A stretch of DNA of 64,000 nt from Membranipora membranacea (Eukaryota; Bryozoa; Gymnolaemata; Cheilostomatida; Membraniporidae): the NCBI GenBank assembly GCA_914767715.1, contig OU612072.1, forward strand, positions 6,446,001-6,510,000, in the 5' to 3' direction. Made by a program: the position numbers and the translations under genes. Positions 9,874-59,701 of the stretch are shown in pieces (within the stretch, counting starts at the first letter, position 1; each line of letters begins with the position of its first letter). A model generated the notes under the pieces. The model had not been told where the DNA came from and searched no databases. It saw nothing but the letters and a program-made list of their open reading frames with translations.

Positions 9874-12800
9874 ATGGCAGAGCAGCCCGCACATCTCGAC
9901 TCGACAGGTCGGGATCCTCTTGTGTTTTACTTATTTGATGTAGATGGAACACTCACCGAAGTCAGAAAGGTAATGGTTTTAATAATTCACTCTCATATTC
10001 TCATGATTGAAATATTCGTACTTAATTTTGCTTTTAATACTTCACTGAGATTAGAACAGGGGTCGTGTTGCTACTCAAAGAGGTATTGGGCTGTGTGCGC
10101 ATAAATAATGGACTAAGGATGAAACCTTTCACTGCCCTGTTGCAGTGTCGCACACACACAGCATTGTCTGTCTGCTATGACGAAAATAATTCGGAGGGGA
10201 GCATGTGTTTGTGTTCAACCTGTCCTGTCAACTTTTTGAACCTGTGGAAAGGGGCTAAGAAATAATCCTGGTGTGCTCTGTTTTTTCCTTATGTCCTCTG
10301 AATCTTGAGAGTTCACTAGCCGGTGCTTATGTTCTGATTAACTGTTTCAGACTATATCAAGAGAGATGATGGATTTCATGCAGGAGATTAGAAAAAAAGT
10401 ATACTGTGGCATTGTGTCTGGATCTGACCTTGAGAATGTCAATCAGCAACTCAAAGGTCAAGGTAAGTGTAGATGTGTTAAATGACGTCAGTCTCTAAGT
10501 ACATCTGTTGTGGTTGCAGAGGTTTGTGCTTTGCCCTCTATTCCTTACAGGCTTCTTAGAAACCAATCTTGGACCACAAGCTATGTGCTTTGAATTTGGA
10601 ATGATAGACCCCTCCCCCGCGCATCGTTTATATGAAACATTCTAGTTGTTCTAAAATGAGGCAAGCGTATCGGAGAAATATGGTAGGCTAGGCGGAGGTG
10701 TGGTATGAGAACTTGTGGTGCACTATTCTCAGATGTCATATTACCGAACCTCAACTAAATTCTCATTCCAATTAAATTATCGATTTAGCTTTATTTTTTC
10801 CTATATATCACAGTTTCTGAGTCGTGTGAATAATGAAATGTGTGGAAAGTCTGGCACACCAGATATCAAAATCACTTACAGAAGTTGGGCCCTGATTGAT
10901 TGGAATTGACATGGTCGTAACTTGGTGGCGAAACTCTGATGTTAATATTTTACCAATGCATACAAAACATTTGACTCTTTCACTGCTCTTATATATATAT
11001 TGAATATGTGCAACTATGATCATGTTTACAATTTACTTTACATGATACCAGCAACAGACAAATTTGACTACGTCTTCTCAGAGAACGGTCTGACATATCA
11101 CAGAAATGGCAAGCAGGTCATCAAAACAGTGAGTTATTTATGACTCTGACCACTCCGCACTTAATCAACTTTAGCTTACAGGGGTAGAAGTCACAGGGGC
11201 TTTTGCAATGAATGTGACTGTCAGACTTGAAATTGATCTGCAAGCAGTTTAACTCCAGCAGGTATACAATTTAAACTGTTAGAGGCTCAGATTTACAGAG
11301 TTCTCTGTGTAATAACAGGTGTAGACATTGATGAGTTCCAGAACAGCTCCAAATTGGCATTATCAAATACTCCTTTCGTAGTTCAAGTGCTCAGATTGCT
11401 GTCAGTGGGTTTATGTTTTAATAAATACTAATTGCCCTGGATGGAGTAGTATGTAACTGCGACTGTGTGCCGTGCCGCTTGAAGCCATTAAACACCTCTA
11501 ACTAGGTGTGGACAACTCCTCAAATACTCTAGACAAGTTAGGGATTGGTTTTGCAAGAGGAAAAGCTGCCGAGTTGACTGTAAATGTTAAATTTCTTGCC
11601 AACTAAAATTTACTCATTCTCTCTACTTCATAAAAGCTGCCACAACATCTAGCTTAACTTGGTGCCAGATAACAATAAGTCATCCAAAAACTAGCTGAGT
11701 TAAACTCTAGCTAATATTTACTGTTCTGGAGCTCAAAGATTACATCCATACATTCTGACACCTCAAATTAAATTCAATATCTTTGCAGAACATCTGTACA
11801 TATCTCGGTGAAGAAAAGCTACAAGAGGTCCTCGATTTCTGTCTCAAATATTTATCAGAATTAAAGTTACCAATAAAGCGGTAAGTCAACTTCTTAAGTG
11901 TGTGAAATAACTAATTTATGTACCACATAGACCTGAATTACTTTACATATACATTATCTTGAGTCAAACACCCGAGCCTAGATTATTTCGCAGGAGGAAA
12001 TGTTTGCATTACTGAAAAGTTGTGTTTTTGGCGACCCCCTTTTCCTCGCATTAGCGCAGTTTTGTTCTCTCCTACAAAGCCAAACCTATACTGTATTTTA
12101 ATGCTGATATCTCACATAATCTTGTCTGTTTTACCACCTCACAGAGGACAGTTTATTGAGCTGAGAAGTGGACTTATAAATGTCAGTCCTATAGGCAGGA
12201 ACTGCACAAGTGATGAGAGAGAAATATTTATCACATACGACAAGGTGGGACATGTGCTATGTGATGGTGTATGTGTCTATGTCATGGGGTATGTGTCTAT
12301 GTGATGGTGTATGTGTCTATGTGAAGGTGTATGTGTCTATGTGATGGTGTATGTGTCTATGTGATGGTGTATGGGTCTATGTGATGGTGTATGTGTCTAT
12401 CTGATGGTGTATGTGTCTATGTGATGGTGTATGTGTCTATGTGAAGGTGTATGTGTCTATGTGATGGTGTATGGGTCTATGTGATGGTGTATGTGTCTAT
12501 CTGATGGTGTATGTGTCTATGTGATGGTGTATGTGTCTATGTGAAGGTGTATGTGTCTATGTGATGGTGTATGTGTCTATGCGATGGTGTATGTGTCTAT
12601 GTGATGGTGTATGTGTCTATGTGATGGTGTATGTGTCTATCTGATGGTGTATGTGTCTATCTGATGGTGTATGTGTCTATCTGATGGTGTATGTGTCTAT
12701 GTGATGGTGTATGTGTCTACGTGATGGTGTATGTGTCTATGTGATGGTGTATGTGTCTATGTGATGGTGTATGTGTCTATGTGATGGTGTATGTGTCTAT

Positions 12801-14101
12801 CTGATGGTGTATGTGTCTATCTGATGGTGTATGTGTCTATGTGATGGTGTATGTGTCTATCTGATGGTGTATGTGTCTATGCGATGGTGTATGTGTCTAT
12901 GTGATGGTGTATGTGTCTATGTGATGGTGTATGTGTCTATGTGATGGTGTATGTGTCTATGTGATGGTGTATGTGTCTATCTGTAATGTAATGTAAATGT
13001 AATGTAAATCACTTTTTATTAGCTGCTCTCCAGCAATCTTTACAGGAATATAACATAGATGCATATACATATTCAACTTAGCGCACTCCTGTACAAGGTA
13101 GGAGTGGGCAAGCTAGGCTATTGTCCAGAGAGCTCTGATGGTGTATGTGTCTATCTGATGGTGATTTTTGTTCACGACTTTAATAAAACCAAATTTGGTA
13201 CTACATCAGATTTACATCCATTGAATTTGTATGGCGGCTTACAAGTAGAAGGGGAGGGGCTTGAAATTTAGGCAAATTTAATCAAACTTGATCTACACTT
13301 TATTGACAATTTTACCATTAGTTTTAAATTTTGGAGACATATGTACCAACCGGAATTTGATTAGGCTTAGAAACAATTCAGTTTTTCACCAGCAAATGCA
13401 TCCCCCTTTAGATGCAGTATTTCTAGTAGTTCCTTGTGGATATACTATATGCAATTTCCTTCCAAATTTCAGCTCAAGTCTTATCCTTCATTTATGACCC
13501 GATGTGCTAGTTCCTTACCTCACTTTGTTTTCCAGTTGTTTCCAAGTTTTACAAGCTGCTCTCACTAGGAAAACATGCTAATGGAAAGATTTACTTGTCT
13601 TAATGAATACATACTTCCATTTCTCAATCTAGGAGCACCACGTTAGGGAGAATTTTATAGCAGAGCTAAGTCAGAAGTTTAACGATGTAGGACTAGTGTA
13701 CAGCCGAGGAGGACAGATCAGTTTTGATATCTACCCTCGAGGGTGGAACAAGCGTTACTGTCTCGATCATATCGACTCTGATGGATTTGAGGACATACAC
13801 TTCTTTGGTGATCGTTGTGAGCCGGTAAGTGGAGACAACTAACTTTATCAATAGTATCCCACAATGCATTTTTCTGTAAATCCCAGGTTGCCTTTTTTGA
13901 GATTACCTTTACACCCACAAACTACTATACACTGACAAGATGTGATACTTATATTTGATTACCATGTTGACTATTCTCTGGTTCCCTTTTCAGGGAGGAA
14001 CAGATTATGACGTGTACAAAGACCCGAGAGTTACTGGACATAAAATAACTGGCCCCGAAGATCTCAGGAAAAAATTACAAGAACTTATTATGAAAGAATG
14101 A
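9874..14101 (+). CDS. PMM: Phosphomannomutase
   Basis: Seven exons: 9874-9969, 10351-10462, 11052-11128, 11789-11880, 12145-12244, 13633-13824 and 13994-14101. All phases agree and give 258 residues (human PMM2 has 246). The enzyme interconverts mannose-6-phosphate and mannose-1-phosphate in the cytosol and so supplies GDP-mannose for N-glycans and GPI anchors. It belongs to the eukaryotic HAD-type PMM family. Visible motifs: the HAD nucleophile loop FDVDGTLT (Asp22 and Asp24), VSGSDLENV in exon 2, VFSENGL in exon 3, [10 protein letters not shown] in exon 5, [18 protein letters not shown] and the metal-loop-like IHFFGD in exon 6, and [14 protein letters not shown] in exon 7. The first ATG after an in-frame upstream stop was taken as the start. 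Intron 5 (12245-13632) holds a long minisatellite. PMM1 and PMM2 cannot be told apart by eye. Confidence 0.97.
12250..12982. repeat. 20-bp minisatellite in phosphomannomutase intron 5
   Basis: A 20-bp unit GATGGTGTATGTGTCTATGT is repeated about 36 times with few changes (GTGATG/CTGATG/GTGAAGG variants). The array starts six bases after the 5' splice site of exon 5. Higher-order repetition of variant units is visible in the first 300 bases. One and a half isolated units recur at about 13136-13163, after unrelated sequence. Confidence 0.98.
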
Positions 14102-14819: not shown

Positions 14820-17800
14820 TCAGGGCTCCAATGGCTCTCCTGTCTTGATAGTGATATAAGTCATATTGTAGGTCACATTGAGGCCATACTTACTATGTCT
14901 AAGTCGTTTGAGTAGGACTGGTACTGCGACGATTATTACCACTACACCCGCCGCTCCACCTATTACTCCTGATGTAAATGGCACGATGGATTCAGTCTTA
15001 TCATCTCTCTTGGCTTGATGTAGAAAAAATATTCATGCATTATAATTTATACAACTAATACATTTACATTGTATTTACTTATTTGAGACAATATCAATAC
15101 AAATACTAAAATTTATTCTGCAATGACCTTGAAATTAACATGACACCCATTTTTTTCACCCTGATTGAAAATTGACTCTGAGTTATGAGTGGCAAAACTG
15201 TCTGTTTGGGAACCATACACTTAATAATAAACCTAGACAGAACAGAAGACTATATATATACAGCTAAGAAGAGGAATTTGAAAAATTGCTTCAGTAGTCT
15301 GTCTTGACAAGCTTTGTTGTGTTGTGTTCCCCCTCCCCCTTTCACAACAAAGCTTGTCTAGACATTCTACTACATTCAACATCATCTTGTTATAAATTTG
15401 ATGTTGTTTTTTCTTTGAATTGTCTTAGGAACTCAAGCACATTTAATTCCATCAATCCAGTCGCTAGTCGCTACAGTGCAAAGACAACCAGCCTGAATTG
15501 ATTGGTTGCACATGCGTAAAGTTATCCCAAAGACCTTGCCCTCATGTTTTCTTGATGCTATCTCTTTTATTCAATATGGCATTGTTTTTTGGGAATTTTA
15601 GGTTCCTATAAGGCTCTAAAAAGTTTATCACCCAAAGTAAATATTGTCTAAGCAGTAAAATTTGGGGCTTACAATGACACCCCCTATCCTTACCTGAAGA
15701 TTCTGAAGTTGTTGTTTCCTCTTCACTAATGCCAACCATTGTCTTCCTAACCAGGCCATCAGATATAGTGGGATGACCTCTTGAGATACTTGTGTGTTCT
15801 TCTGCTCGTATATCCTCTTCTAATGGAAGCACAGTAGTAGGTGGCTCCAGTCGAGTTGGTGCAGTGAGATTAGGTACCGACACAGTTTGAGGAAGTAAAG
15901 TGGATCCCACCAATGGTTCATCCCCTTCTTGAAGATTTGGTAAAATTGGTGTTGGTGGAGGTGTAGTGAGTTCTTCTTCTGTTGTAGATTCCTGCGTGGG
16001 ATCTTCATAAGGTATAGTAGTGGTCGTCTCAATCTGTGCTGTGCTTGGAGGTGTCATATTGTGTTCTTCTGCATGTATTGCCTCTTCTGTTGAAAGCTGT
16101 CTTATCGCTGCCGGTTGAGTTGATGAAGTGAGATCACCTTCCGGTTCTGGAGGATATGTGTCAAACGAGTAGAAATCTTCATATGGTATAGTAGTGATTG
16201 TCTCAATCTGAGTTGTAGGTTCCTCAGTGAGCTCTTCGTGTGGCATAGTGATTGTCTCAATCTGAGCTGTGCTTGTGGGTGTCTCAGACTCAGGTTCAAC
16301 AGTGGTTGGTATAGTGGTGGTCTCAATCTGAGCTGTGCTTGTGGTCGTCTCAGGCTCAGGTCCAACAGTGGTGATGTCTGAGAGAGAACTAGATGTCTCA
16401 CAATCACCTGCAGATATGGTAAACAATGAATGATGTTATGAACTTTAAAAATTAAAAAAGTTCCAAAATGAAGTATTGATATGCATAATCATACACCATA
16501 TTTATAATAGATAGTCTTGGATAGTGCTTCGGTGTGGCATTTTTTCACTAGGACATCATGAGTTCTACTAGAGTGTCTACCTCTAGCTGGCTGTCACGGC
16601 GGGCCCATGACATATAGCCAAAATAAGTGCTTCACTATGTTAAATCATACTGAGTCTCGTAATCTCGACTGGGCATGTAGATCACCAGACACTAGGCTAT
16701 CATTACCAAAAATTAGATGTTGTAAGGGTAAGCATCCATCATATGCGACTTAGTTTTGCGCATGTGCAAAAATAATAAGCTCAGTTCAGGTTTTCATAAT
16801 GATATTGTTCAGAGAGAACGAACCTGCTTCCGTATGAACTGATAATCAATGTTAGCTAATAGTGACAATAGAAGAGAACCATTGATGTCAATTCCTCATG
16901 CAATGGAGAGAGGAGCCACCGGAGCAGGTGGCCAATCGAATGGATTCGGAATTCCGAGACTAAATGTTGCAGAAGTCAGCTCATGCCTCAGAGCAGCACA
17001 TGCGCAGCATAATGTTGATTACCCAATCAGAGCTAATCAGAGCCTCATCTTTTTAACAAGAGGTAACGAACCCAATACATGTTCAAGGATGTCAAAAGGC
17101 CACCGGCCCGCCTTCTAGGAAGGAGTACTCTTTACCTGTTGTGTGTAAGTTGTTGAGGAAATGGCATTTCCTTGTAAGAGACGGGGATAATTCCCATGTG
17201 AATTATTGCGCATATTTATTCCAGTTCTCTTTAAAATGTATGGTATGGTATATGGATATGATACTAATACAAATATAGTTTATCCAGCTCAGGTAAAGAA
17301 CAATTAAAGCGATGGACCACCAACCAAATCTTGTCTAATACCCTGACGGCTGACTCACTTGTTTCACTATCACATGTCAGCGTTTTCTCACACAGTGCCA
17401 TTAACTTTGTAGTAGCCTTCCTGTTACAAGCGATCGGCCTTACTAGAGCGTTTCCTGTAATCAACGCGAGGCAATGGGTTGAGGAGAAAGCACTGGCATA
17501 CTTGACTACTTCTGATTGGTCGATTTGCCAAATGAAAGTATTACCGTCCTTATACACTCCTATCCAGCCGCTCCGAGAAGGCGTCACTAAAAGTACAGAT
17601 TTTAATTGAATGGTTGGTTGATTGACTGGCTGCTTGATAGACTGGCTGGTTGGTTGATTGGTTGGTTGGGCGGTTGGTTGGGCGGTTGGTTGGGCGGTTG
17701 GTTGGGCGGTTGGTTGGGCGGTTGGTTGGGCGGTTTGTTGGTTTATATGGAGGAAGGCAGATCGGAGAAGGATGGGAGGGATATGGTGGGTGCGGTGTTT

Positions 17801-28448: not shown

Positions 28449-28585
28449 CCTAATATGGGACATTGAGAACTTCCATGCTTACAAAACATGCCTAATATGG
28501 GTCAACCATGCATTCAGCGCATGATCGCATTACCTAATATGGCACAGCGTAGACATCTTGAGAAAGCGGAACATTCCTAATATGG
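28449..28585 (+). promoter_or_regulatory. CArG tetrad 1 (SRF-type sites at 42-bp spacing)
   Basis: CCTAATATGG occurs at 28449-28458, 28491-28500, 28533-28542 and 28576-28585, all in one orientation, at start-to-start distances of 42, 42 and 43. Each fits CC(A/T)6GG, the binding consensus of the MADS-box factor SRF. 42 bp is four turns of B-DNA, so all sites face the same side of the helix. The spacers differ from each other, so this is not a simple tandem repeat. A TATA box starts 13 bases after the last site. Confidence 0.85.
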
Positions 28586-28598
28586 GACAGTGCTCATC

Positions 28599-28606
28599 TA
28601 TATAAG
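28599..28606 (+). promoter_or_regulatory. TATA box downstream of CArG tetrad 1
   Basis: TATATAAG, 13 bases after the fourth CArG box. A start site would fall near 28630. Around 28613-28627 lies a small perfect stem-loop, TCGGGC-GAA-GCCCGA. Confidence 0.65.
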
Positions 28607-28672
28607 CCAGAATCGGGCGAAGCCCGACATAGTTCCTTGTATCTCTGGCAGCGGATAACCATCACTGTTATA

Positions 28673-28789
28673 ATGGAGTCACTTTTGGTCCTCACACTGA
28701 TTCTGAGATCACAGAGTGTTGCCTGGAGGCTGACAGACAAACATAATATTCTTTTCAGACTTATAATTGATAGCTATCCACACAACTAA
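28673..28789 (+). CDS. Possible small secreted peptide or first exon behind a CArG/TATA promoter
   Basis: The first ATG after the TATA box (about 45 bases after the expected start site) opens 38 codons. The product begins MESLLVLTLILRSQSVA, a plausible signal peptide with a short hydrophobic core, and ends in SYPHN. The family is unknown and no cysteine is present. It may be an entire short peptide, a chance frame in a non-coding transcript, or part of a first exon. The only support is position and the hydrophobic start. Confidence 0.3.
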   Translation: MESLLVLTLILRSQSVAWRLTDKHNILFRLIIDSYPHN

Positions 28790-29133
28790 CGCTTTTTACA
28801 AATTCCTATATTTTTACATCGTTATAAATAAATCATTTTTTGACACAACCTTATCTATATCAGCCACTGATTTGGACTTTGCTCGGTGTGCTCAGTCTTT
28901 TTTTTATTTATGTGTGGTTTTGATTTATAATTTTTCCTCTAGCTGTTAGATACTAAATTCTGCCTGAGGTTGCAATGAATGGTTTATTTATATCATCTCT
29001 GTCTAAAAGACCTCACAATTCTTTGGTTGCTGAGATGAGGCCGACACTTAACTCTTGACCGAACTAAAAATAATTACTGTGGTTTTCCTGATGCAGCACT
29101 TTTGGTGATTCCCTTCCCAAGTAACGGAATTTG

Positions 29134-29185
29134 CCTAGTATGGTTTGGCCATGGGCTTACTGCATGATCAGCAAACCTAATATGG
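29134..29185 (+). promoter_or_regulatory. CArG pair at 42-bp spacing
   Basis: CCTAGTATGG (29134-29143, one base off the strict consensus) and CCTAATATGG (29176-29185) lie 42 bp apart. The spacer has a GGCCATG ... GCATGATC arrangement like that between sites 2 and 3 of both tetrads. Confidence 0.7.
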
Positions 29186-29568
29186 CTGAAGAGGTTGACT
29201 CTTTGGAAGTGAGTCTATCTCACTATACCAGGAGAGCGGAAAGCCAATCTGTAAGGCTGGAGGGGGGCGTGTCTGGGGTTTGGGGGTCAAACTAGTAAGG
29301 CTATAGTATTCTATCCTTCCCACTGATTAAGGTCAGACATCCCTCTCCTAGCTGACCATCAAATACCTGCTAAAATAATAGATAAATTTTGTGTTCAGAT
29401 GTTACCAACCAGGCTAGGGATGTTAAACTGATACAAAAAAAGAAAATATGGTCGGCATTGTCTTCTGCTTGGATGGGTAGTTCAAATATTTGAGATATGG
29501 CACTCCTTGAGTGTTCCAGATTCTAGGAGATAGACTGAGCTGATGCTTTTGTCCAAACAGGAAATTTT

Positions 29569-29636
29569 CCTAATATGGGTACCAGGCAGACAGCAAACCA
29601 GTTGCGTCTGGATTGTGCCAATTTGACCAAATATGG
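29569..29636 (+). promoter_or_regulatory. Two further CArG boxes
   Basis: CCTAATATGG at 29569-29578 and CCAAATATGG at 29627-29636. The latter is the form found in vertebrate muscle actin promoters. They lie 58 bp apart, outside the 42-bp register. Confidence 0.7.
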
Positions 29637-29740
29637 GTGTGTGCCAGCTAAATCCACCGTATCTGTAGGAGGACCGGTACCTCAGTTGCTAGGATGTAGT
29701 TGGGAGGGATATGACTGTGGTCACTTGAACTGTATTTATA

Positions 29741-29877
29741 CCTAATATGGCTCACATCCAAAATTCCATAAAGTGGTATTTTCCTAATATGGGTCGACCA
29801 TGCGCTAAAAGCATGAACAGCGTACCTAATATGGCATAGCTAGAGAGTTCTTTGCTTCAATATCTTCCCTAATATGG
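29741..29877 (+). promoter_or_regulatory. CArG tetrad 2 (same 42/42/43 spacing)
   Basis: CCTAATATGG at 29741-29750, 29783-29792, 29825-29834 and 29868-29877 repeats the orientation and exact spacing of tetrad 1. The spacer between sites 2 and 3 (GTCGACCATGCG...GCATGA) matches the equivalent spacer of tetrad 1 (GTCAACCATGCA...GCATGA). Other spacers have largely diverged, so spacing is better preserved than sequence. No TATA box directly follows. Confidence 0.85.
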
Positions 29878-29992
29878 GACATTAGAGCTCTCCCGCTACT
29901 GGCGTAAGTTAATTATGGGATTAAAATTATACAGCCTATTTACATAGCCCAAAGTTTGAGTCTAAAGAAAAGCTCGTTGCTTAGAGCAAATA

Positions 29993-30239
29993 CCTAATAA
30001 GGGAGGAGGCTGATAAGTGGAAGTGACTGGCACCATATAATCAATGGTTGCTAGGATACAAAGCTGTTTTGTCTACTGTTTTCCTTTCTGTGACACGCAT
30101 ATTTTGATTGATTTTTAAGCTTCAACGCAGATTCTGGAACCTTCTACTGTATTTATTCCTAATAAGGCACATAGCTACACTACACTACAGCTAGACTTAA
30201 TCAATATTTCCTAATATGGGAGTTAGTAACAGTATAAAG
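29993..30239 (+). promoter_or_regulatory. Distal CArG boxes and second TATA box
   Basis: CCTAATAAGG at 29993-30002 and 30158-30167 and CCTAATATGG at 30210-30219 all fit CC(A/T)6GG. TATAAAG at 30233-30239 again lies exactly 13 bases after the last box, as downstream of tetrad 1. A short frame starts at 30270 (MADVMPMLVRSHYNQG..., 21 codons) but has no recognisable feature. Confidence 0.65.
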
Positions 30240-30849
30240 GTTGTGCGACAGCGCATCTAGCTATTAAAGATGGCTGATGTAATGCCGATGCTAGTCAGAA
30301 GTCACTATAACCAAGGATTTCAATCCTTGCTATAACATGGCTACCCAGTCTGGTCCAATTGCTTACCCAATCGTTTAAGGCGGCTCTAACTCAGATTTGA
30401 TGCTCAAAACATTCAAACCAAATAAAAGTCACAGTATGTAGGCTTGCATCATGCTATGACAAAAAACTTACTTCCAACGAATAGCAGCCCTATCAGAACA
30501 CCTAATGTGAAACCAATTTGTTTGCCCCCACTCCATCCAGCACACAGAGTGCAATTTCAAACACCATAACACCATTCATTACTACATTAATGATGAACTA
30601 AAATTTTTTACCCAACATTTACCCTACCCACACTTTTAAGTTTATGGGGTAATAGACACATATATACATAGACAAAAACGCAAGAGACATCGTGACCGAG
30701 ATTGTAATTTAATGCAAGTCATACTTCGCCTAATTAAATAAATGTTCGCTGTATGACCGCATGTACTAGCAGCTGAGGAAAATTCCTATCCAAAGCGAAA
30801 CTTATACATGTGTTTACAACTTGGGGGAAAATGCCGTTTACATCTATCA

Positions 30850-31005: not shown

Positions 31006-34000
31006 ATGCTCACTTCACTGAAGATTCTTTTGCTTGCGAGACGCAGTTTTGTAATTTTGACCAAGAGATTAAATTCAACTATGGAGCACCCAGCACAGCC
31101 TCATCTTCTAGACGGACGAAAACTCAATTTCGCACCAGGACCAAGCGCATTGCCGATTGAGGTAAGAAAACTTAAGTTTAAGTTAAGTGTCATCTGGGAG
31201 GGATCATCATTGAAACTTCACGCATACCAAGGGCTACCAACAATGAGAGCAATGAACTAAACTAAGGTTTAGTTCATTGATGAGAGGGAGTTCATTGCTA
31301 CCAGACATTATCATCTGAATCGGCGCGAATTTGCAGCGCTGAGTGAAAGTTTGACAATTCCATCGTTCATTGAATGAGAATAGATTAACTCTGCTGCATA
31401 TCACATTTTATTGTAACAGTTCTATGATTGGAAACTTTTAATCCTTTTATGCTATCAATCAGGCCTAATGTTGACGGAAGCACTGCATTAATAAACTCTT
31501 ATAGAATTCATTGAGTTCCCGGCCATATGGTGCTTATGCACCTATTAATACTACCTCTATCAATTTGTGGCTATAATACTCGTAATAGAAGGCTAGATTT
31601 TGTGGTCTGTAATAATGGTCCATGAGATTTCATAAGCATCTTTTGTCCTCAGTGGAAATTTTCCATTCATTTACCACAAGATATTATTATCCCTGCTTTA
31701 TAAGCTAAAATTAAAGGATTCAAGGGCAATTACAAAAGGGAGTGAATGGGGTGTGACCAATCAAATTCGTTTGCTCCCAGCAAGCTAGTGATAATATTCC
31801 CAGGAAAAAATGAGCATGCGCTGGGTAGCTGATTTTTTATTCGCCTTTGTTGAAATTTAAATCCAAAACTTCTATTTGACCCCCACATGAAGTTAGTAAT
31901 ATCATAGGTGTAGTTAAAGTTCATTCTCAAACTCTGCCCGCCCTGGTTGTTGACAGTGACAACTCATTATCAATCACATCCCATCCATAGGTAGGTGGCA
32001 CTGTGGTTGCTAATGAAATGTCGCAACCATCAAGCCAGGCACACTTTCAGCTAAGGTTGCAATAGCCACCATCTTGTCGCATGCTGAATGAGTTATGTAT
32101 TTTTAACTGCCATACATCAATATTGATTGTTTTGTCAAATGACATGGGAGGTTTTTTTTTAACTATGCTTCCCAATTTCATCTTTGTAAAGCTGCACAGT
32201 GTAGAACAATATTTTCTTGTTTATATTGTTAGACTGCAGTCGGTAATATTGATTTTAATTCTGTCAGCTGAACTACTATACTATATGGGGCCCATGTACA
32301 TAATTACATAGTGTGATAAATTACATATCAGCTGATTCAGTAGTAAGCCGGCATGGCGTTGTTCTAAACCTCACATAGTCTGTTAGACTGAGCTAAGGCT
32401 ATAATCAAATTAAAGCCATACGCACTATCCCACATCAGGCAAGGCTGGCCGAGAGAAAGTGTATTTACTCATGATTTAAACCTAAAGGATCAAACCAACA
32501 ATAGGGGCAAATTAAAGTAACTTTTCTTTTTCTTATATTCCTGAAGATGATGCTTTACTATTGTCCCTGAAACCTAGATAGTGGGGTGGGGGGTACCTCT
32601 CCGTGGGGGGAAGTGGGTGGCATTTTCCGTGGGGAAGGGTTGGACCGCTCCGTGGGGGAGGGGGCGGACCTTTACGTGGGGGAGGTAGTATAACTATCTG
32701 TGTATTTTTCGGCAGTAGGCCTATGATAACCTTGCACATGGTACAGTCCCGATCATCAGTATGAGATTTCACCAAAAGGCATAATGCTAAAGAATTCAAG
32801 GTGCAGATAATCATGGCGGATCATTCATAGGTTGGGGTGAATATTTTATAACCCTTTTTAGTATAAAATTTAAAAAAAACGACTCTATCGCAGCCGGTCA
32901 TTAGTTGTTACCATTGATCTGTCATGTAACACAATGATCTCTTTTTATAATTTCAGGTGTTACAGAAAGCTCAGAGTGAGCTGCTCAACTACAATGGAAC
33001 TGGAATCAGTGTTATGGGTAAGTGATGACAAGGATGGGCAACTCCAAATTAGCCACCAATTTGGTTTCGTTTCATTGATAAGTGCAATGATTATGAGTTA
33101 TGCCTTATTGTCATGCTCAGACAAGTTCAACTTATCTCACAGTTTACTTGTCATATATGAACTATGATAAGAGAGTTGTCGGGGCCTCAGTGAAACAGAA
33201 CTTAGCAAAAAATAATGCAAAAATCAAATTTGAGGAAGAGTTGTCCTCTCTTGACTTATTTACATAGTTTTAGCCCAAAATACTATAAAACCCTGAGCTG
33301 TTGTTTGCTCCTATTTTAAGATCAAGTTATGAGTGCAACTAGTCTATGTTCTTTTGTCTTACGTGATGATCATATTATCATTTGGGATGCTATGCTAGCT
33401 CGACACCCTTTAGGATGTTTGATCGCCAAGCTCAGGGACAGGCTCTGACGATATGCACATGCAATGTTATGAGGGCTTAGTTTAGACAATGAATCACTTA
33501 TCCAAGACAGATTCTTGATATGTTTGACCTTAACTGACCACGCAGATAGAAGCATCCACCTTCATGTTTGATCTGTTCCTTTGTAGAAATGAGCCACAGA
33601 TCCCCTGACTTTGCGTCGATACTCAACCGAGCAGTCTCTAACTTAGTCGACCTCCTGTGAGTATTTGTTGTCTTTGTAGGAATTCCTTTATCTAACTTAT
33701 ATTCTGCAAAGGAAACTAAGAATGTGTCTTCTCCAACATGATTAATTACTCTGGATTCAGCCACACAACCTACCTAAGAGGAGTTAATATTATCTGAAGT
33801 AAGATGTGACACCAATTTACATTAGCCTAGGTGAGAGAGTATATGAAAATGACATGTTGAGTAATTGTTACCTATAGCCATATATTTCACTACTTCAAGC
33901 ATCTCATACCCATATTCGTTTGTTTCTACTCCAGAGATATCCCCACAAACTACAAGGTGATGTTTATGCAGGGCGGAGGTACCGGTCAGTTTGCTGCCGT

Positions 34001-36713
34001 AGCTATGAATCTGATGAGACTAAAGCCCGGTCACTCCGCTGACTATGTGGTCACCGGCTCATGGTCACAGAAAGCTGCTAAAGAGGCTGAGAAATACGGC
34101 AAAGTCAACCTTGTCCTCCCACCCACCAAAGTCTACAAAGGTACTTCAGATTCTTCAAGTCTTAAAAATCTGCGTTTGCTTTTTAATTTGGATGTTCTTT
34201 TCGCTAATGAGCAACCTGTGTCCAAAGGTAGACAAGAAATGCCATTTATAGTAATGTGAGCAGACTGCCATTAGAAACTTGAAAATTTCACTTCGTTGTA
34301 GATTGCACTAATCGCCTTGGACTGGTATCGGGAGTTTTTGAGCTATCATCATGAGATACTATTCCAAGGACATTGTTTTAGCAATGTGGAATTATCCTTT
34401 CTTTGACATTAGGAGGATAACTCACAACATTCTTCTCCCCAGCTAACAATTTATTATATGTAGTACTAACTGATGATGCATTGATATTTCCAGGTGTACC
34501 AAACAGCAATACATGGAACCTTGACAGCCAAGCCTCCTATATATACTACTGTGCTAACGAAACTGTACATGGTGTAGAGTTCCATGAGCCAATCAAGTAT
34601 CAGTCAGAAATACCAATAGTAGCCGATATGTCCTCAAATATGCTCACTAAATCTCTAGATATCTCCAAGGTATGTGACACTGTGTATTTTAATATGTCAC
34701 GCGTTGCATTTCCAACTTTTTCGATAAGGGTTTTGAAATAGCTGGATCGTACAAGTTGACTGAAAAGTGTTTAAATGACTATTATTTAAACAAAAAGTAA
34801 ATAAGCCCACCGTGTAATCACAAATGTTGATGCAGATGTTTTCACATTTGATTATACACATTTGAGAGGGTTTACTAGATCAGACTCGGACCATAGAATG
34901 AAGCAAGTCAAAAAAAAATTCTTTTCGGAAATAGTTGTATATCGCGACAAAAGCCGTTCACGAATCCATATTAAATGGGGCAAGGTCTCTAATTAATTTA
35001 ATCCTTCATAAATTTCTCATCTGATTAAGATTATTTATTGCTTGTAGTACGGAGTGATATACTTTGGTGCTCAGAAGAATGTAGGACCTGCCGGAGTGAC
35101 AGTAGTGATAATTAGAGAGGACCTGTTAGGACATGCCATACCTGAGACACCTTCAATATTAGATTATAAGATCATCGCTGCTAATAACTCTCTATATAAC
35201 ACACCACCCTGCTACAGGTAAACAAGACACTCAGTATATGATGGATATCTTTGTTCAAATGCTGCTGCCAGGGTTGATGGTAGTAGCATTTCATTATCAA
35301 CCACATTGATTGGAATTCCAATCAATGTGGTTGATAATGAAATGCTACTACAATGTACTCTGACTGGATTTGAACACCTGCACTACTCTTGTCTAGACTT
35401 TTTATATAATGTCAATTACTTGATCAATTTGAAAAAGCCTGTTCATCAACCATCTGCCTAACCATACAAGAGGGGGTAACTCCAATGTCAAGCCACATGT
35501 GACATTAATTAATCTACTCTTTCATTTTGCTTTCTATTCGCTTATTGCTTTATATTATTATTTTGATAGTATATACATGTGCGGTCTGGTGTTCGAATGG
35601 TTGAAATCTCACGGAGGAGTCGAAGCAATGAGTAAAAAGTCAGATCTGAAATCCTCAGCTCTTTATGATATCGTTGACAACTCTCGAGAATTTTACCAGT
35701 GAGTACAAAGTTATTAGATATCTGTGTAATTGATTTTGGTGATAAGTGTAAGACTATTTCACAAACACAGACGAATGCTTTGTCTGTCTTGACATGACAT
35801 GCGCCCGAACGATGAAGCTTGCCAAGACAGGCCAGTAAATGCTGTGTTTTTTGTGTGTAAAACTGCATATCCATATTGTATCCATCCATGACACAGGTTT
35901 CTCAAGCTATTTTTGTGGTATTAACAAAATAAATCCATTTTATAAAACAGTTTATAATGCAACTTTTAATTTGGGAATTGCCCACTCTTATTATTGTGGA
36001 GGTCCAATACTCAAAGCATATATTATGTTTTGTTCACTGAGAGACACTTCTTACCTTGTAGCTGTGCAGTAGACAAGGAACACCGAAGTCGTATGAATGT
36101 CACATTTAGAATCGGAGGACCAGATGGCAATGATAACTTGGAAAAGAAATTCTTAGAAGAGACAGCAAATTTAAACATGATCCAGCTTAAGGGACACAGG
36201 TATGCAAACCCTTTCTTTCATGACTGTTTTAGAACCCTGGCTATGGCCTAAGGCTGTGAACCTGACTTTTTCGTTTGGTCTACATCTGGTTATTTGAGTT
36301 CTTATTAATACCAAAATAAAGATATGAGATATCCAATTTAAAACTGTACCATAGGATACTCTATAAATGGGAGAATGATTGATCATTGTTCTCGACATGT
36401 TATGGCATACCATGATCGCAGAGATCCCTGCTGGGATTTGAAAGCTTTATCGATTTGAGAAAGTGCATTCAATAGCGGGCATTTGAGCCATCTCATCTGC
36501 ATGCATAAAGTTATGTGTCAATAGTATATGATTAGAACAGAACCGCCAATTATTTCTTCCAAATATGCTGTCATATAGTTCTTTTTTTATCTCTGTAGAT
36601 CTGTGGGTGGAATAAGAGCCTCCCTCTATAATGCAGTACCAGTGGAACACGCTCTGAGGCTAGCAGATTTCATGAGAGACTTTCAGTCACGGTTTGGGGC
36701 TCCAGAAGTTTAA
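31006..36713 (+). CDS. PSAT1: Phosphoserine aminotransferase
   Basis: Nine exons in phase: first exon to 31161, then 32957-33017, 33587-33656, 33935-34140, 34494-34669, 35048-35217, 35570-35698, 36062-36199 and 36599-36713. From the ATG at 31081 the product has 381 residues (human 370). An in-frame ATG at 31006 would add 25 residues rich in Leu, Arg, Lys and Ser with no acid, like a mitochondrial presequence. The enzyme is a class V PLP aminotransferase that makes 3-phosphoserine in serine synthesis. Motifs: [48 protein letters not shown], the PLP lysine in [22 protein letters not shown] and [17 protein letters not shown]. Intron 1 has a G-rich repeat and intron 6 a perfect palindrome. AATAAA at 37367-37372 may end the transcript. 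Confidence 0.97.
32577..32692 (+). repeat. G-rich imperfect tandem repeat in PSAT intron 1
   Basis: CCGTGGGGG-like units recur four times at 20-40-base intervals between other G runs. The tract could form G-quadruplexes on the coding strand or transcript. A minus-strand Pro-rich open frame here is a composition artefact. Confidence 0.7.
35280..35351. repeat. 72-bp perfect palindrome in PSAT intron 6
   Basis: The 36 bases at 35280-35315 are exactly complementary, base by base, to 35316-35351, with no loop; the centre is GGAATTCC. Arms of this length without a spacer are unstable in most hosts. Short ATG motifs flank both sides, but no clear target duplication was found. Confidence 0.97.
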
Positions 36714-44370: not shown

Positions 44371-45545
44371 TTCTCGCTCAGACGTTTATTGTAATCAGCA
44401 CTAGCCGCTCTGTGAGCTGGGACTGCTACGTAATAATACAGGAATACACTCTCAGAGCTACTCAATTCAATTATACAAATACAAACTATTTTTTTTCCTA
44501 GATTGGGCCAATGAGGTAAGGCCTTCTATTTGTACAATATTTTATGTTGCCTGTATGTCTGGCTTGTGCCCACTATATTTCAGACACACCAAAAAAAAAA
44601 TTTATATATTTTTTATGCCGCAAAATCAAACTGATTGGATGCTAAATTTTATATTCACTGTTGCTGCACATATCATATGAGATATCAACTGATCAACTCT
44701 CAGTGGTTACACAAATCTATATTTCTTTTATTAGTATTATTGTGAAATATATATATCATATATATATATAAATAGTGTAGAGAAATTCAGTCGCGGTGCC
44801 ACTTATCGATAAATTATATTTTCCTTTCTGCGAGCACGGCAAGAAAGTTTGTGTTTGAACAATGTCAGCCACCTGTTTTACCTGCTAACAGGTATTTTCA
44901 TATTTCTATTACAATTAATGTAGATGATTCTGTCATTTTTTGTCATGTTTCATTTAAATTTCATCTTTTCGAGTTATTGTTTTTTCCCACAGGAGCTATT
45001 AACTCCCATATTTGTTTTTCGTTTGTAACTGCGTCCCAATATAACACATGGATTATTATTATCATTGTAATCTGTTGCGCTTAGAAATTTGGATAAAAAT
45101 ACAATAGCCTGGGTAGAGGTACGGAAGCCCATTTCAATTGAGCGAGCTTACAACATTTCCAGGAGTTCACTTCAAACTAGATTCGTTATCAAAGATCATC
45201 TAATCACCTGCTGATTGCAAATTTGTTTCTTCATGAGACTTTATTTGCTATCATTTACTCTCTTGTAAAGGAGGGATAAGTGGAGATTTGTACATTTTAT
45301 TGCATTAATATATAGATAAATAGCATTGCATATCAATTTGTGGAAATGTCATGATCCGGAAGCTAACAATAAGGCTGCTAAAAAACTGTAAGAGGTTTAA
45401 AACTTGAAGAAAAACAGAATAGAACATTTGATATGCGTGCAGAATGTGGCAAAGCTTACATATTACATACAAGCTCTAACTCCCGAAAGTGGAATTCTCC
45501 ACTATAACAAGCACGAGGGAGCACCTGTTGTCACCAGGATCTGAG
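44371..45545. other. Convergent intergenic region
   Basis: It lies between two convergent genes and probably consists largely of their 3' UTRs. TTTATT at 45296-45301 is a possible AATAAA for the minus-strand TRAF-like gene. AT-rich low-complexity sequence occurs near 44750-44775. No further exon was recognised. Confidence 0.5.
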
Positions 45546-48500
45546 TTATTGTGCTGTGACGCTCTCCTCAGTCACTCGCACTCTGAGATAGATACAGTCA
45601 TCTATGAGGAAGTTACCAGATTCCACATCAGACTTTAGAGCAAACTGAGGACATCCGCTGGCTATATTCATCTCTGTCTCTGGGCGTCCGAATGAGGAGC
45701 TCTCTGGATCAGGCTGTAAAAAGTATATACAAAGAGATATGTCAAACATCACAAACAGAAACCACAGAGTACAGTTTGGGGCTCGGTCAGCTGAAACTGA
45801 GGCTATGAAAATGTGCAAATTATCAGGCAGAACAGTTTTAGGGACTCCACAAAATTGTTATCTTAAGCATAAAACAACAAAATACTGATTTACAATGATT
45901 GGACGCAGATGAGTTTTGAGAAATGGGTTTGCGTCTCTGGTTATGCTGGGTTCATAGAGGACTCACAATAAAACTTTCATGCTTGCTGAGTGATGGATCC
46001 TTTGGACACAGCAAACTGTAAGTGACTTTCTGTTGGAATGGGAATTGGCACAGATCATCAAAATCTCCCTTCACCAGTATAAAGTAAACACTCAGATGTG
46101 TATTTTCCCCGGATCCCTCACCATTCAGATACACCTGTAAGCACATACAGTATGGCTGGCTGTAGATTATAGGGTATACATAACTCCCAGAATAGTCAGT
46201 GAAGGTCAGTCTCATAAAATATTATTATCATTGACCTGGTCTCACTGGGAATACCAGAAAACTGCATTTTGGGATACCAATTAACTTGTAACATAAAGAG
46301 TATCTTCAACTCAACCAACCGGGCCTGTGTTTTATATTAAGAATCAAACGAGCCATGTTGGTTAAATGAAGGAGTCTTTAACTCTTTGATGAAATTCATA
46401 TGTAAAATGTAAATGGTAATTTACACCTAAAAGTAAGGCTCACGTTGGTACGAATTGTTTATTGAAAGTAATTCAGAGTTTTTCTGAACAATTTTGGACA
46501 CTGCTTGATGGAGAAGAAAACCTTCTAAACTACTTTGAGAGAACATGTCCTGTCAGTTGCGATCATTGATATGAATATATCAACAGTCAATATAGGAGCC
46601 ATTTTACAAAATTCAGGTTGTAAACAGCAATTAAAAAAACGGTGAATATTTTACCTGACAGCACATTTTATATCCATATTTGGACGAGTAGAACGGAGGA
46701 CTGAAGATAGACTTCTGTACTCCTCTGACAGCGTCAGCTTTTCTCTCTCTATAGTCCTTGATCTTCATGATATAGAAGCCTTCATAGCAACCGATCTCAG
46801 CATTCTACAAGTACAGTGTTGAGACAAATAAGCTGTTTTGTAAGCCCAGCATCTACCAAGTTATGAACTATTGTCTTTAGTCAGTAAAGCTGACATGAAA
46901 AGGCTGGAACAGTAAGCACATATTTTAACTCAGTATTGTAAGTATTGATATAAGATGGGAAATTTCTGCATCCTAGAAACCCTGTTATGACAAAACAGAG
47001 GGTGGGCTGCCCCTAAAGAGAGACGCAAGTTGCCTGGAGTCCTCATACTGAGAGTGTGATACATCCTAGTAAACTAAAATGTATCCTAGAGGTGAGGCCA
47101 TGGTGGACCTCCTAATCGTGAGTGTGCAGCAAGCTGCCAGAAACTGAAACAGGCACTAATCAGCCATTGGTCATGACACTTTGATCTTAGCCAATAGGCC
47201 GAGAAGCGATCCTAGAAACACTGGGTGGGGATCTTCCATAATTGAGTGGTTCTCTCCTCGATGATAACTTGTGACAAGAGAGTAATCTGTGAAATAGTGT
47301 CTTAATCTGAATTTTCCTGTAACCTGCTGGTTATTCAATAGTTTGGCGTGTGGAAGTTAATGACATGCTCTGCCTACCTTCATACTCATATCCAGATTGT
47401 TCAGTCTCCTACTCTGATCTGTCAAGTCTACTGAGTGAAATCTAATCTGCTCATCAGCTCTATCTGAAAAATAAAAAAAATCAAGTTTACAGTGATAGCA
47501 AAGTTGTCTTCTTTTTTACAAAGGGGAAGCAACTAACTAACATAACTTGTATAGTGAGGATATTGTCATGTCATTCCCATTCTACTGGTGAGTCGACTCA
47601 AACTCTAAATGCAGGCAGACTGGATCATGCTTGATCTAGTGATGACCTATAAAAATGAGTTACCCACCCAGGTCAGACTCATCGACCAGTCTTTCAGCTG
47701 TGGCGATTCTATTTTCAAGCAGGATGACATGCGATGAGTTTCTTGACACTGTGTCCAGAGTGATTTTCGCATCCTGAGAACTTGCTTCACATAACTCAGC
47801 CTTCTTCTGTAGTGTTTCAACTACTGCTGAGATATCTGTGACTGCTCTCTGATAAATAAAGCAACGGAATAGCCAGTTTTTACATGGTAAATTCTACATA
47901 GTGAATCATCAGCATTCTCATGGAATATATCTCAGCCTTTTAAATTTGACAATTTGGGTAATTTACCTTAATGCATACATTCCCAAATTATTATCACAGT
48001 TCAATCTCCGCCATCCTGAGCGAATGGTTATATTTTTAAACATGATTTGATCATTATCATATTTTAAAATCTTTAGAAAGGGCTGAAATCTGTTTGCCAC
48101 TTTTACTCTGCGTCATAGGATAGCGTTAATAATTCACCTCTAGGGGAAGTACTCTGTTCTTAGTCTGGTTATTCACTTCATCAACAATCTACAAATAGAA
48201 GTTGGGTATATCGATTCGGTTTAGTCAAATCATGATGACCAGACAGCTCTATAAAAGATTGACAGCATAACTACAAAGGTATTCTTCTTTGCCACATCTT
48301 ATTCTCCATATTTCATTCTATCATGTGAGCAAGTTTCAGCGTTATAATCCTAATATTGAGGAAGTCATGGCAATGGGAATCAGCGGGTAAACCTAGTACT
48401 ATGTCACACATGCCTACATGACAGAATTTGTTATACTAATTATTTCGCAAATAAATTGATGATCAACATTTTGGTGCAGGTGGGAATCGAACACGGGCCG

Positions 48501-49490
48501 AATGGATTAGCAGTCAAAGGATGCTACCACTGTTAATTTACAGTAATATAGTTTCATGTTTTCACATCACAAACCTTTTCTTGTGTCTTTACTGGTTGGT
48601 CCTCCTCCTCCAGGTCCAACATTTTCATTGTCAGATACTCCATATGCACATCAAGGTCCTCTCTGAGATGCTCTCTCATATCCTCTACTGATGAGGCTGT
48701 ATATCCGCAGCTGTCAAAGTAATGACAGCGGCCTACCTGGTTTGTGCAGGTGGGGCTTACTTTCCTGTGTGTATCCAGCTTTGAATGGGAAAAAGAATCG
48801 TATCATTGGTTAACAACTCATATTCATAATGATGCGACCTGAATTATCTGGGTATCACAGAAACCTCTTTTATCTCATCATCGACTTCATATAATTTAAA
48901 ATTCTCAAAATTCTCAATAAATACTGTGATAGGAAAATTAAGTATCTCCCCTGATCTAGTTTGCACGTAAAAAACTGGCCTCAACAGTATATTTGGGGCT
49001 ATTAGGGATCGTTTGGCTCATACAAAGAGTAAGTTATGAATTTTATTTTGTGAACTTCACCATCATCTGTTGTCGCAAGATTTGTAGACACTGGATCCGT
49101 TGTATTGCCCCCAAAAACGAGAGAGATGTATGTGCAAGGATCCATGATGAGGCACCGTACATGTACTAAAGTTTGGCTTGATTGTAAGCCAATAATGTTC
49201 AGCAGAATATAGGACTGTATCATTTTGTAGCTAGAGTTTCATCAAATGAAGATCACCAATACTGACCTTTTCTTTTTAAATACCATCAATCATTTTTATA
49301 GAACTGCCCTCATCGATAGCAATATTTTTAACAAATACACCTGTTTCATTACGATATTTGTTTTATGCATGGTCTTATGTGTCATTTATGACTTGATCAG
49401 CAAATAAGATTGATATTATTAATATTGTTATCTCACCGATAGAATATCTTTGAATCCGTGTTTACAGACTACACATGTATGTGACTCCAT
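45546..49490 (-). CDS. TRAF-like protein 1: zinc finger, coiled coil, MATH domain
   Basis: Exons on the minus strand: 49490-49437, 48778-48575, 48188-48138, 47848-47668, 47463-47378, 46804-46655, 46134-45967 and 45713-45546. All phases agree and give 353 residues. Residues 1-18 hold a CxxC (CVVCKHGF). Residues 19-86 form a TRAF-type zinc finger (CTNQVGRCHYFDSCGY...MREHL...DVH). Residues 87-190 are polar heptad-like coiled coil. Residues 192-353 form the MATH/TRAF-C domain: KIKDYRERKADAV, FYSSKYGYKMC, VYLNGEGSGENTHLS, FPFQQKVTY, then PDPESSSFGRP and EMNIASGCPQF. TRAFs trimerise through the coiled coil and bind receptor tails through MATH, in NF-kappaB and JNK signalling. There is no RING, so no E3 activity of its own is expected. 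An upstream extra exon cannot be excluded. Confidence 0.88.
48320..48545 (-). mobile_element. Decayed copy of the tRNA-like inverted-repeat element
   Basis: Blocks such as ATATTGAGGAAGTCATGG, AATTGATGATCAACATT and GGTGGGAATCGAAC occur in the same order as in the element at 447-914. The minus-strand B box (48482-48494) is preserved. It lies in an intron of TRAF-like gene 1. Confidence 0.65.
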
Positions 49491-50000
49491 AATTCTAGCT
49501 TTGCTGACCAAAACAAATCTGTTTCTCCTAAGATATATAAAGTCACATCAGAGTCTACAAAACATGTTTTTTAAAGTTCGCAGACCAGTGCAATGTCGTT
49601 CCCTTTAACAGTCGCATACATAGGGAGTGGAATGAGAGGTTGGACCAGTCGTTATGAACAGCACGTACTCATTTTGTCTCAATAAAGCTTTTGTGATTGG
49701 ATTAATATAAGATAAAAATAGATAAAAAATAGCCTAAGTATCTGTTATCTTTATCTACATTTTTATGAGAACGCATGACAAATGACAAACTATCAATAAG
49801 ACAGCTCTCAAGCTAATCCAGTGAATTAAATATCAAATATCAATATCAAGCATGTGACGCTAGTGTTGCTCAATCTAACCCTGCACAATACAATAAAGCA
49901 TTGCAGATTGGTCCAATCCAATATACTATCCCATCCCACTCTATCGTGTTTGCTCTGTTCATAATAATTCACATAATTCTGACTTTTACTGCATGCACAG

Positions 50001-50040
<40 letters not shown>
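50001..50040. repeat. ACATAT microsatellite
   Basis: ATACATATACAT units, 6-bp period, about six copies. Repeat-encoded open frames on both strands are artefacts. Confidence 0.95.
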
Positions 50041-50063
50041 GTATAAAAGATTCAACGGGATGT

Positions 50064-50073
50064 GGGAATTCCC
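50064..50073. promoter_or_regulatory. kappaB-type site upstream of TRAF-like gene 1
   Basis: GGGAATTCCC is a perfectly symmetrical Rel/NF-kappaB site, about 580 bases before the start codon of TRAF-like gene 1. Function is inferred from sequence only. Confidence 0.5.
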
Positions 50074-50386
50074 ATTTAAATCAATATAAGTTAGCAAGAA
50101 AACTTAGTCCTTAGTTATAGCAAACTTATTGGTCAGCTTGTGAAAAGATCACTGATACTTTTATAGGCGATGCTGGTCGTAGATTTGTTGCATATTCGTT
50201 GTCCCTGACCGTAGTATCGAAGGTGGAACACCCCTAAGCAAAATAACCAGCACACTCAAAAGTGTTCTCACCTTGAACATTCGATATCCAGCGCCACTTC
50301 TAAGTATAATATCAACATGACAGCACTCAAACTAATCAAATGAATTAAAGCATGACTTGTAATATCACTGGTCAAACCAGTAGGCT

Positions 50387-50404
50387 GGGAAATCCCATGA
50401 CTCA
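50387..50404. promoter_or_regulatory. Paired kappaB and AP-1 motif upstream of TRAF-like gene 1
   Basis: GGGAAATCCC (50387-50396) is followed after one base by TGACTCA (50398-50404). The wider block TAGGCTGGGAAATCCC...GTGTGGAATA recurs before TRAF-like gene 2 and, weakened, before the third copy. Confidence 0.65.
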
Positions 50405-51920
50405 CTAATGTCACACAGGGTGTGGAATACGGGCAGTCAAAAGGGTTTTTATCAGCCCAACAACTACTAGGAGCATAATCAAAAAACGATTGACATGCCT
50501 ATAAATCACTTATTGATTTATTATCGTTTCATTGTGTTATCATTTTATTATCTTTTCTTGTGTGTTATACTATGAGTTGTGAGTTAATGGTGATGAGCTG
50601 CAAAGATAGGCATTGCAGAAAAATTCCAGTAGCCACTTTTATGATAAACTCCTACTAGAGGATTTGTTGGTGTAGCCCACGTCATGTACAACACATACCG
50701 TAATGTTGCAGAGCACTACAGCACCAACAACATTTCCGTATGAGCATTGAGTGCTGTAAGATATGTCCCATACAGCACCTGCAACACTGTTGTGTAGTTG
50801 CATCGGTTGGTTTGCTGTGAATGCATCTAAATGCACCTAAGACTGCCATACAACAGTCTTGCCAGATCTTACAACACCCGCCGCCAGCTGTTCAGAACCG
50901 CTTGAATTTTTGTAAAGATTTATTTTTCTTCATGACTTTATTCCAAATAATATAAAATAATTCTTATGGACTTCCTATCATGAAGCCAACAGTGTGAATA
51001 AGCAATGAGGCTTAGCCTTGTAAAATATGCATGGTCAAAGTAGTAAGAGGAGAATATTCGATGTTGCTTTATCTACCACAAGAATGATGTTATTTTAGGT
51101 CTAATTAGGATGCATGACAACAATTAAAGAAAAATCAAGAGCAACACTTGGATAAGTTGCAACAATTATGACAAAGCAATTGAATCAATATTATAGTCAA
51201 CTTAGAAGTAGTAATAATAAAATGAATCATCTCACCAACAGTAACACTTTAGGAGAATGCTTGTTTCTGTAACCCAGGTCAGCGGTTAGCCACAATACCA
51301 CAACCTAGATATCATTGTTAGGCTTGTGTTTTGTCCCCTCCCTACTTCCCATCCCATCTGTCCAGTGGACTGAAAAAAACACTGCCTAATCTCAACCCTT
51401 GAAGAGTGGGGGAGGGGAGAGGGAAGGGATGGCTTTACTTTTGGCAAACAAAGTTTACAGGCAGCATATCAGATAGGAATCAAGGCTGCAACACTATTAA
51501 GCTTGCAAGAAAAAGAGAAAAATTTAAGGAAAAATGACCTTTTAAACACAAAAATCGATGGTTAAATTGTGAATATTAATATGTTGATAATTATTAGGAT
51601 ATATTGATAGAGCAGTAGTGACTGATAATGAAATGATACCACTAGATATCCCGGCACAGTCCAAGCGCTTAAACTAGTAGAGCATCAATTAATAATTCAA
51701 TGATACCTTGCTCAACCTTTGTATATGTAGACAGGGAGAATGGATAAGAACAGGCCTACATCGAGGAGAATGGAGAATTCATTCGTCCTGATGCAGGCCT
51801 CTTATTGGCTCTGAGAAACAATGATTAATATGTGGGCAAAGAACTCTTGAATATCATCCAAATGAAATCATACAAAGGATAAACTTAGCTTGAGATTGGT
51901 GTTGTTCTAAATCGAGTAGA

Positions 51921-56630: not shown

Positions 56631-56861
56631 ATATTGTGTGAAGTGATATAGTCAAAGAAACGCAAAACAAAAACGAAAAAAAAACGCAGCTTTCTCTAAG
56701 CCAGGCTAAATGTCAAATGAGCCCTACGCATGCCGCACCAAGATTACTTATAGTCAGTGATTTCCTATTGATAAACCCCACTAGCCGGTAACCACAAACA
56801 TAACTATTGAGTATGGCAAATGCTAATGGGCGCTGATAAAACTCTGTCATATCAATAGGCT

Positions 56862-56879
56862 GGGAAATCCCATGACTCA
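56862..56879. promoter_or_regulatory. Paired kappaB and AP-1 motif upstream of TRAF-like gene 2
   Basis: GGGAAATCCC (56862-56871), one base, TGACTCA (56873-56879), about 230 bases before the start codon. GTGTGGAATAAGGCA follows, as in the copy at 50.4 kb. Confidence 0.65.
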
Positions 56880-59190: not shown

Positions 59191-59701
59191 TCATACTAAC
59201 CTCATAAAGATCTGACATTATACTTATTGAAAATTTTAAATTTGTCCTGATCTAACACGAGCAGACTTTCGCAAGTTTACTTGGTAAATAAATTGGCAAC
59301 AAAATCCCCACATTGCAGTTTCAACCTGGAATTCCCTGAAGATCAGATTAGTTAGATTCCACGGAATAAGAGGTATGTTCCCACACATATAATGCAAAAA
59401 CAAAACACCTTTTAATTTCCAAATATGACCACTACAACTGGGTAAACCCGGTGAATTTTACAGAAGAAACATCAATGAAGTATAATATGCGATCAGTTTC
59501 CTGCCATCACAAAATTGTCCATGCCATTATTTTATAGAGCAGTTATTGCTAGGCTGCTTCTTGCCTAAAATTATTATCACAGGCCAATATTTGCCTTCTT
59601 GGTGATACTTTTAAATATGATTTGAGCATCCTCATGTTTTAAAAGGGATGGATCTGTTTGCCACGTTTACTCAGCATCATAGGATGGCGTAAATTATTTA
59701 C

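Follow-up and report, generated by a model that had tools for sequence, protein, structure and literature searches.

A near-unique array of phased CArG boxes upstream of PSAT1 suggests shared regulation of serine and glycine metabolism genes in the bryozoan Membranipora membranacea

What might a dense, single-orientation array of CArG boxes be doing on chromosome 8 of Membranipora membranacea? The array occupies positions 28449-30219 of the 64-kb window (the whole stretch of DNA analyzed, chromosome 8, 6446001-6510000) and comprises 14 strict CC(A/T)6GG boxes and 1 near-match, all on the forward strand; a recount reproduced these numbers as given in the initial annotation. The strict boxes start at 28449, 28491, 28533, 28576, 29176, 29569, 29627, 29741, 29783, 29825, 29868, 29993, 30158, and 30210. 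Eleven of the 14 are CCTAATATGG, two are CCTAATAAGG, and one is CCAAATATGG; the near-match, which starts at 29134, is CCTAGTATGG. Two tetrads of CCTAATATGG, at 28449-28585 and 29741-29877, have the same spacing of 42, 42, and 43 bp, as had been reported, and the separate 42-bp pair is likewise present as unit 2 (29126-29186), where the near-match at 29134 is followed by the strict CCTAATATGG box at 29176 and which resembles boxes 2-3 of both tetrads. A pair at 29569-29636 (CCTAATATGG and CCAAATATGG, spaced 58 bp), a single CCTAATAAGG box at 29993-30002, and a pair at 30158-30219 (CCTAATAAGG and CCTAATATGG, spaced 52 bp) complete the array. The window holds 18 strict boxes, compared with a mean of 5.92 (SD, 2.64; maximum, 14) in 100 dinucleotide shuffles, which give a chance rate of about 1 strict CArG box per 11 kb, and no exact CCTAATATGG was found in the window outside the array. 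By both shuffles and Poisson estimates, the array carries more copies than expected by chance within an enhancer-sized stretch, as a homotypic cluster does, and all 14 strict boxes match the CArG/SRE sequence CC(A/T)6GG.

The array lies 0.9-2.6 kb upstream of PSAT1 (phosphoserine aminotransferase; 31081-36710, forward strand), the gene for the second enzyme of serine synthesis and the presumed target. Eight coding stretches of this gene, which has at least 1 further exon, were mapped, and the protein assembled from them shares 74% identity with that of the bryozoan Watersipora subatra, the best match being a JGI sequence at 98%. The gene upstream of the array shows a sub-threshold match to the Rdx family; a minus-strand RING-like stretch at 27.6 kb, which has no Pfam match, was discarded. 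Elsewhere, the window contains a 20-bp minisatellite (12252-12980; 36.5 copies, 95% matches), an open stretch of 297 codons that is mucin-like and threonine/proline-rich (15542-16435, reverse strand), and a local gene family of several TRAF/MATH-type fragments whose zinc-finger-like and MATH exons resemble one another (45500-60400, reverse strand). Scans of prokaryote and viral contigs yielded 8 and 7 stretches that each had 1 match, taken as chance.

Across the 339.34-Mb genome, CCTAATATGG occurs at 569 sites and the same word read backwards at 387. Same-orientation pairs of CCTAATATGG with a gap of 31-33 bp number 7 genome-wide, 6 of them in the array and 1 on chromosome 3; none was found with a gap of 34-64 bp, and 3 have a gap of 0-30 bp. 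The 10 same-strand pairs within 74 bp fall at 5 loci (the array, with 6, and PSPH, GLDC, a TRIM37-like gene, and a coding repeat, with 1 each), compared with ~0.035 pairs expected. These counts refer to direct pairs, and the positions of single sites were taken from the first 100 of the 569, which cover chromosome 1 and chromosome 2 to 32.08 Mb. Within the genome the array is nearly unique: when the 42-bp spacing was scanned for genome-wide, as the initial annotation had proposed, CCTAATATGG pairs with it were found at only two loci, the array and PSPH. Three of the four noncoding direct-pair loci are genes of serine/glycine metabolism (PSAT1, PSPH, and GLDC). Given PSAT1, the probability that at least two of the three other loci would be pathway genes by chance is 2e-6 to 9e-6, under our assumption that 15 of 17,000 genes belong to the pathway.

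The chromosome 3 locus carries 9 exact boxes between 28279481 and 28284116, including a 42-bp pair; the segment 28282350-28284200 alone contains 7 exact boxes and 6 one-mismatch forms. Two of the boxes lie in an intron of PSPH, the gene for the third enzyme of serine synthesis, and the rest 1.5-3.2 kb behind it. The joined PSPH exons match solved phosphoserine phosphatases at ~6e-42 and the TIGR00338 serB model at 9.1e-24, below the curated cut-off of that model. The longest BLAST matches between the window and the chromosome 3 array are ≤25 bp, the shared sequence consisting of the boxes and a few adjoining bases, and masking the boxes leaves a score that is equaled or exceeded in 73 of 100 shuffles. 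Because the PSAT1 and PSPH arrays share nothing beyond the boxes, CCTAATATGG was not spread between them by a common repeat. Counting against a shared switch, the PSPH array lies mostly downstream of its gene, with the boxes pointing against it. Three of its boxes are followed by GTGTCA and then by a word resembling the RFX X-box, such as GTCTCCATGGCTAC (707-745, 1324-1362, and 1543-1581 of the extracted chromosome 3 stretch); these words have 2, 2, and 3 mismatches to what we take to be the X-box consensus, and in the window array, sites with 2 mismatches to a shorter X-box form occur at 28718 and 30047.

At GLDC (glycine decarboxylase), the pair stands at chromosome 1:22599634 between two exons (GDC-P, 5.5e-111), and a third box, CCAAATATGG, follows 23 bp on; the spacing at GLDC is thus 23 bp instead of 42, which counts against the shared switch. 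Two other places also count against the pathway link: a pair at chromosome 1:11575904, near exons of a gene that we take to be TRIM37 (one MATH match, below the cut-off) and accompanied by a third site at a distance of 9.6 kb, and two exact boxes on one strand, 6.9 kb apart, at chromosome 2:12241721 and 12248574. The chromosome 11 pair was rejected as a regulatory cluster, being part of a coding PNMG repeat. The extended word TNCCTAATATGGG occurs at 38 genome sites, compared with 22 for its reversed control: 7 in the array, 1 at PSPH, 3 on chromosome 7, 1 on chromosome 11, and 26 elsewhere. The last group shows no excess over the 22 control sites, which counts against a regulon. The chromosome 7 sites, of the form TTCCTAATATGGG (4144045, 4174985, and 4214117, one box each), belong to segmental copies that surround a mucin-like gene, are nearly identical, and are spaced by 31 and 39 kb; these sites therefore represent one duplicated site.

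Arrays at PSAT1 and PSPH led to the prediction of boxes at PHGDH, the gene for the first enzyme of the pathway (at approximately chromosome 1:38601161-38606621, reverse strand). Behind this gene are an inverted exact pair, at 1.7 kb, and a further exact box, at 7.5 kb, and in front of it stands a one-mismatch box at 38607003; the Poisson chance for two exact boxes to fall within 2.5 kb of PHGDH is 1.5e-4. The inverted pair forms the middle of a perfect 79-bp palindrome (chromosome 1:38599417-38599495), with the CCTAATATGG boxes facing each other, and when it is counted as one event, the expectation is 0.017. In addition, 22 bp of the palindrome (the box and the following bases) match the PSPH array in two places at 91% identity (E 0.002), and four other PHGDH-family loci (TIGR01327) examined as a control contain 0 exact boxes in 80 kb. 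These observations are suggestive of PHGDH belonging to the box-bearing gene set.

Because the word of the array recurs at PSPH and GLDC, a shared cis-regulatory code is the best explanation, and because box clusters recur at serine/glycine genes, we infer co-regulation: the array is probably a homotypic enhancer that coordinates the expression of serine/glycine metabolism genes through an SRE-type site, the likely ligand being SRF. The initial proposal of a regulatory array is supported, with its 42-bp spacing recurring at the unlinked PSPH, but the surroundings, being serine/glycine-metabolism genes, do not point to the serum- or actin-responsive role put forward with it. Under the proposed mechanism, the array would serve as a homotypic cis-regulatory module for PSAT1 and would belong to a set of modules built from CCTAATATGG at serine-synthesis and glycine-breakdown genes. 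A sequence-specific dimer, most probably of the MADS-box factor SRF, would bind each box. The spacing of 42-43 bp corresponds to four helical turns and would place the dimers on the same face of the DNA, and because it would align them in this way, they could jointly recruit a coactivator. The joint output would be that transcription of PSAT1, PSPH, GLDC, and perhaps PHGDH is set together.

The identity of the factor that would read the boxes is a weaker inference than the co-regulation. SRF is plausible and is the first candidate because CCTAATATGG is a perfect CArG box, because its reverse complement is, as we take it, the c-fos SRE core, and because of how single changes leave the CArG form: among single-mismatch boxes in the two arrays, CC(W)6GG is kept in 5 of 10, compared with 20% expected (P 0.03), although in the rest of the window it is likewise kept in 2 of 5. 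It is nevertheless possible, if on balance unlikely, that something different from SRF reads the shared serine/glycine switch, perhaps a zinc-finger factor strict for CCTAATATGG(G/C). The boxes were aligned across the window and chromosome 3 (30 boxes chosen at ≤1 mismatch, the strict chromosome 3 boxes 28276653, 28280442, 28280757, and 28283549, which have more mismatches, being left out); 20 of the 30 are the same exact ten-mer, 23 have T at -2, and 23 have G or C at +10. Such a preference for one ten-mer seems narrower than we would expect of SRF and is the main argument for another factor. A literature search outside of which most subscription journals lay found no link of SRF with serine biosynthesis or PHGDH/PSAT1/PSPH, which also favors a different reader, and within the same limits, and as judged by title, found nothing related on SRF in bryozoans and nothing on a CArG box together with a homotypic cluster. 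Against a different reader stand the perfect CArG form of CCTAATATGG and the retention of that form somewhat above expectation.

A further possibility is that the array serves as promoter for a separate small gene or noncoding RNA and that its adjacency to PSAT1 is incidental. Boxes 28576 and 30210 each stand 13 nt before a TATA-like word on the forward strand, TATATAA at 28599-28605, a candidate core promoter by sequence only, and TATAAAG at 30233-30239, a second candidate ~0.84 kb before the PSAT1 start codon. Because of this arrangement, parts of the array may double as start sites, possibly of an upstream PSAT1 exon or of a transcript of a small open reading frame (ORF). The first TATA word is followed by a 38-codon ORF (28673-28789, forward strand), which has a signal-peptide-like start, as judged by eye, and by an AATAAA at 28827; the ORF is a possible small gene or noncoding transcript. 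The stretch from this TATA word to the presumed start site includes a short hairpin, TCGGGCGAAGCCCGA (28613-28627). The promoter explanation is nonetheless improbable: the boxes recur at PSPH and GLDC, the interval from 27.3 kb to PSAT1 (31.0 kb) shows no strong coding-like stretch, the ORF has no Pfam match at E ≤ 1 and was not picked up as coding-like in its own frame, and the TATA words near the chromosome 3 boxes are 21-33 nt away, unlike the 13 nt at 28576 and 30210.

Local duplication has probably contributed to the array, which could in principle be its relic, devoid of present function. The boxes share one orientation, and the sequence around boxes 2-3 is recognizably similar in three units that start at 28483, 29126, and 29775 (643 and 649 bp apart). 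The spacers were compared with the boxes masked for 10 pairs of regions, each against 200 shuffles. Similarity exceeded all 200 shuffles for tetrad 1 versus tetrad 2, for unit 2 versus tetrad 2, and for the 50 bp before box 29741 versus the 57 bp before box 30158; for tetrad 1 versus unit 2, the score was reached by 5 of 200 shuffles; and the remaining 6 of the 10 pairs showed no similarity above the shuffles. The three units probably descend from a local duplication, and part of the shared 42-bp spacing would be due to it, given that the sequence near boxes 2-3 is alike in all three. The earlier description of the spacers as largely diverged needs correction to this extent, that some of them are still similar. 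A functionless relic is very unlikely: the boxes are identical while much of the spacer sequence has diverged, and clusters are present at unlinked pathway genes. We read the boxes as being under constraint because they are intact while 6 of 10 masked comparisons show no similarity. Least credible is that CCTAATATGG is carried by chance on a mobile element or satellite, a reading that we rejected for the array: the three units ~645 bp apart share some sequence and the PHGDH pair sits in a palindrome, but the array lacks the many genome copies of a dispersed repeat, or of the transposon family that the initial annotation had set against a regulatory role, as pairs of its spacing are near-unique, at two loci only that are unrelated outside the boxes.

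The preferred reading, a homotypic enhancer of serine/glycine metabolism genes, has partial parallels in known systems. Serum response elements bound by SRF, such as the c-fos SRE, EGR1, and the actin CArG clusters, have CC(A/T)6GG in common with the array, but the array stands at a serine-synthesis gene and has 14 strict boxes phased at 42 bp, whereas the SRF clusters known to us are smaller and located at immediate-early or contractile genes. Homotypic clusters of transcription factor sites are found in fly and vertebrate enhancers and, like the array, consist of many regularly spaced copies of one site; here, by comparison, a near-identical ten-mer with the same four-turn spacing occurs at two unlinked loci of one pathway. 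A match to what we take to be a CARE/ATF4-type motif, TTGCATCA, lies at 30444-30451 on the reverse strand, and the same word is found near PSPH (chromosome 3, 28282151). CARE-like sites number 1 in the window between 27 and 32 kb and 2 in 10 kb at PSPH, but the class is common, with 9 sites in the 64-kb window and 7 in 40 kb of chromosome 3. The excerpted text of one report describes induction of PHGDH, PSAT1, and PSPH via GCN2-ATF4 in cancer cells and also names MYC and NRF2 (PMC10161514). As there described, mammalian ATF4/CARE control has a single regulator inducing the three genes together, much as in the proposed switch, but the box motif of the array is a different one.

If the regulon is real, DNA sequence alone would have revealed a metabolic regulon in the Bryozoa, a phylum for which, to our knowledge, there is little regulatory genomics. 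Helical phasing in enhancers could also be tested naturally on the regular spacing that the two unlinked loci share. Should the boxes be read by SRF, serine and one-carbon supply would be linked directly to a factor associated with growth and the cytoskeleton. More tentatively, and with rather less confidence than we place in the enhancer itself, this bryozoan, or bryozoans at large, might control the serine-glycine pathway through an SRF-type site in long phased arrays, such that growth, mechanical, or settlement signals would set the serine supply, replacing ATF4 or acting beside it.
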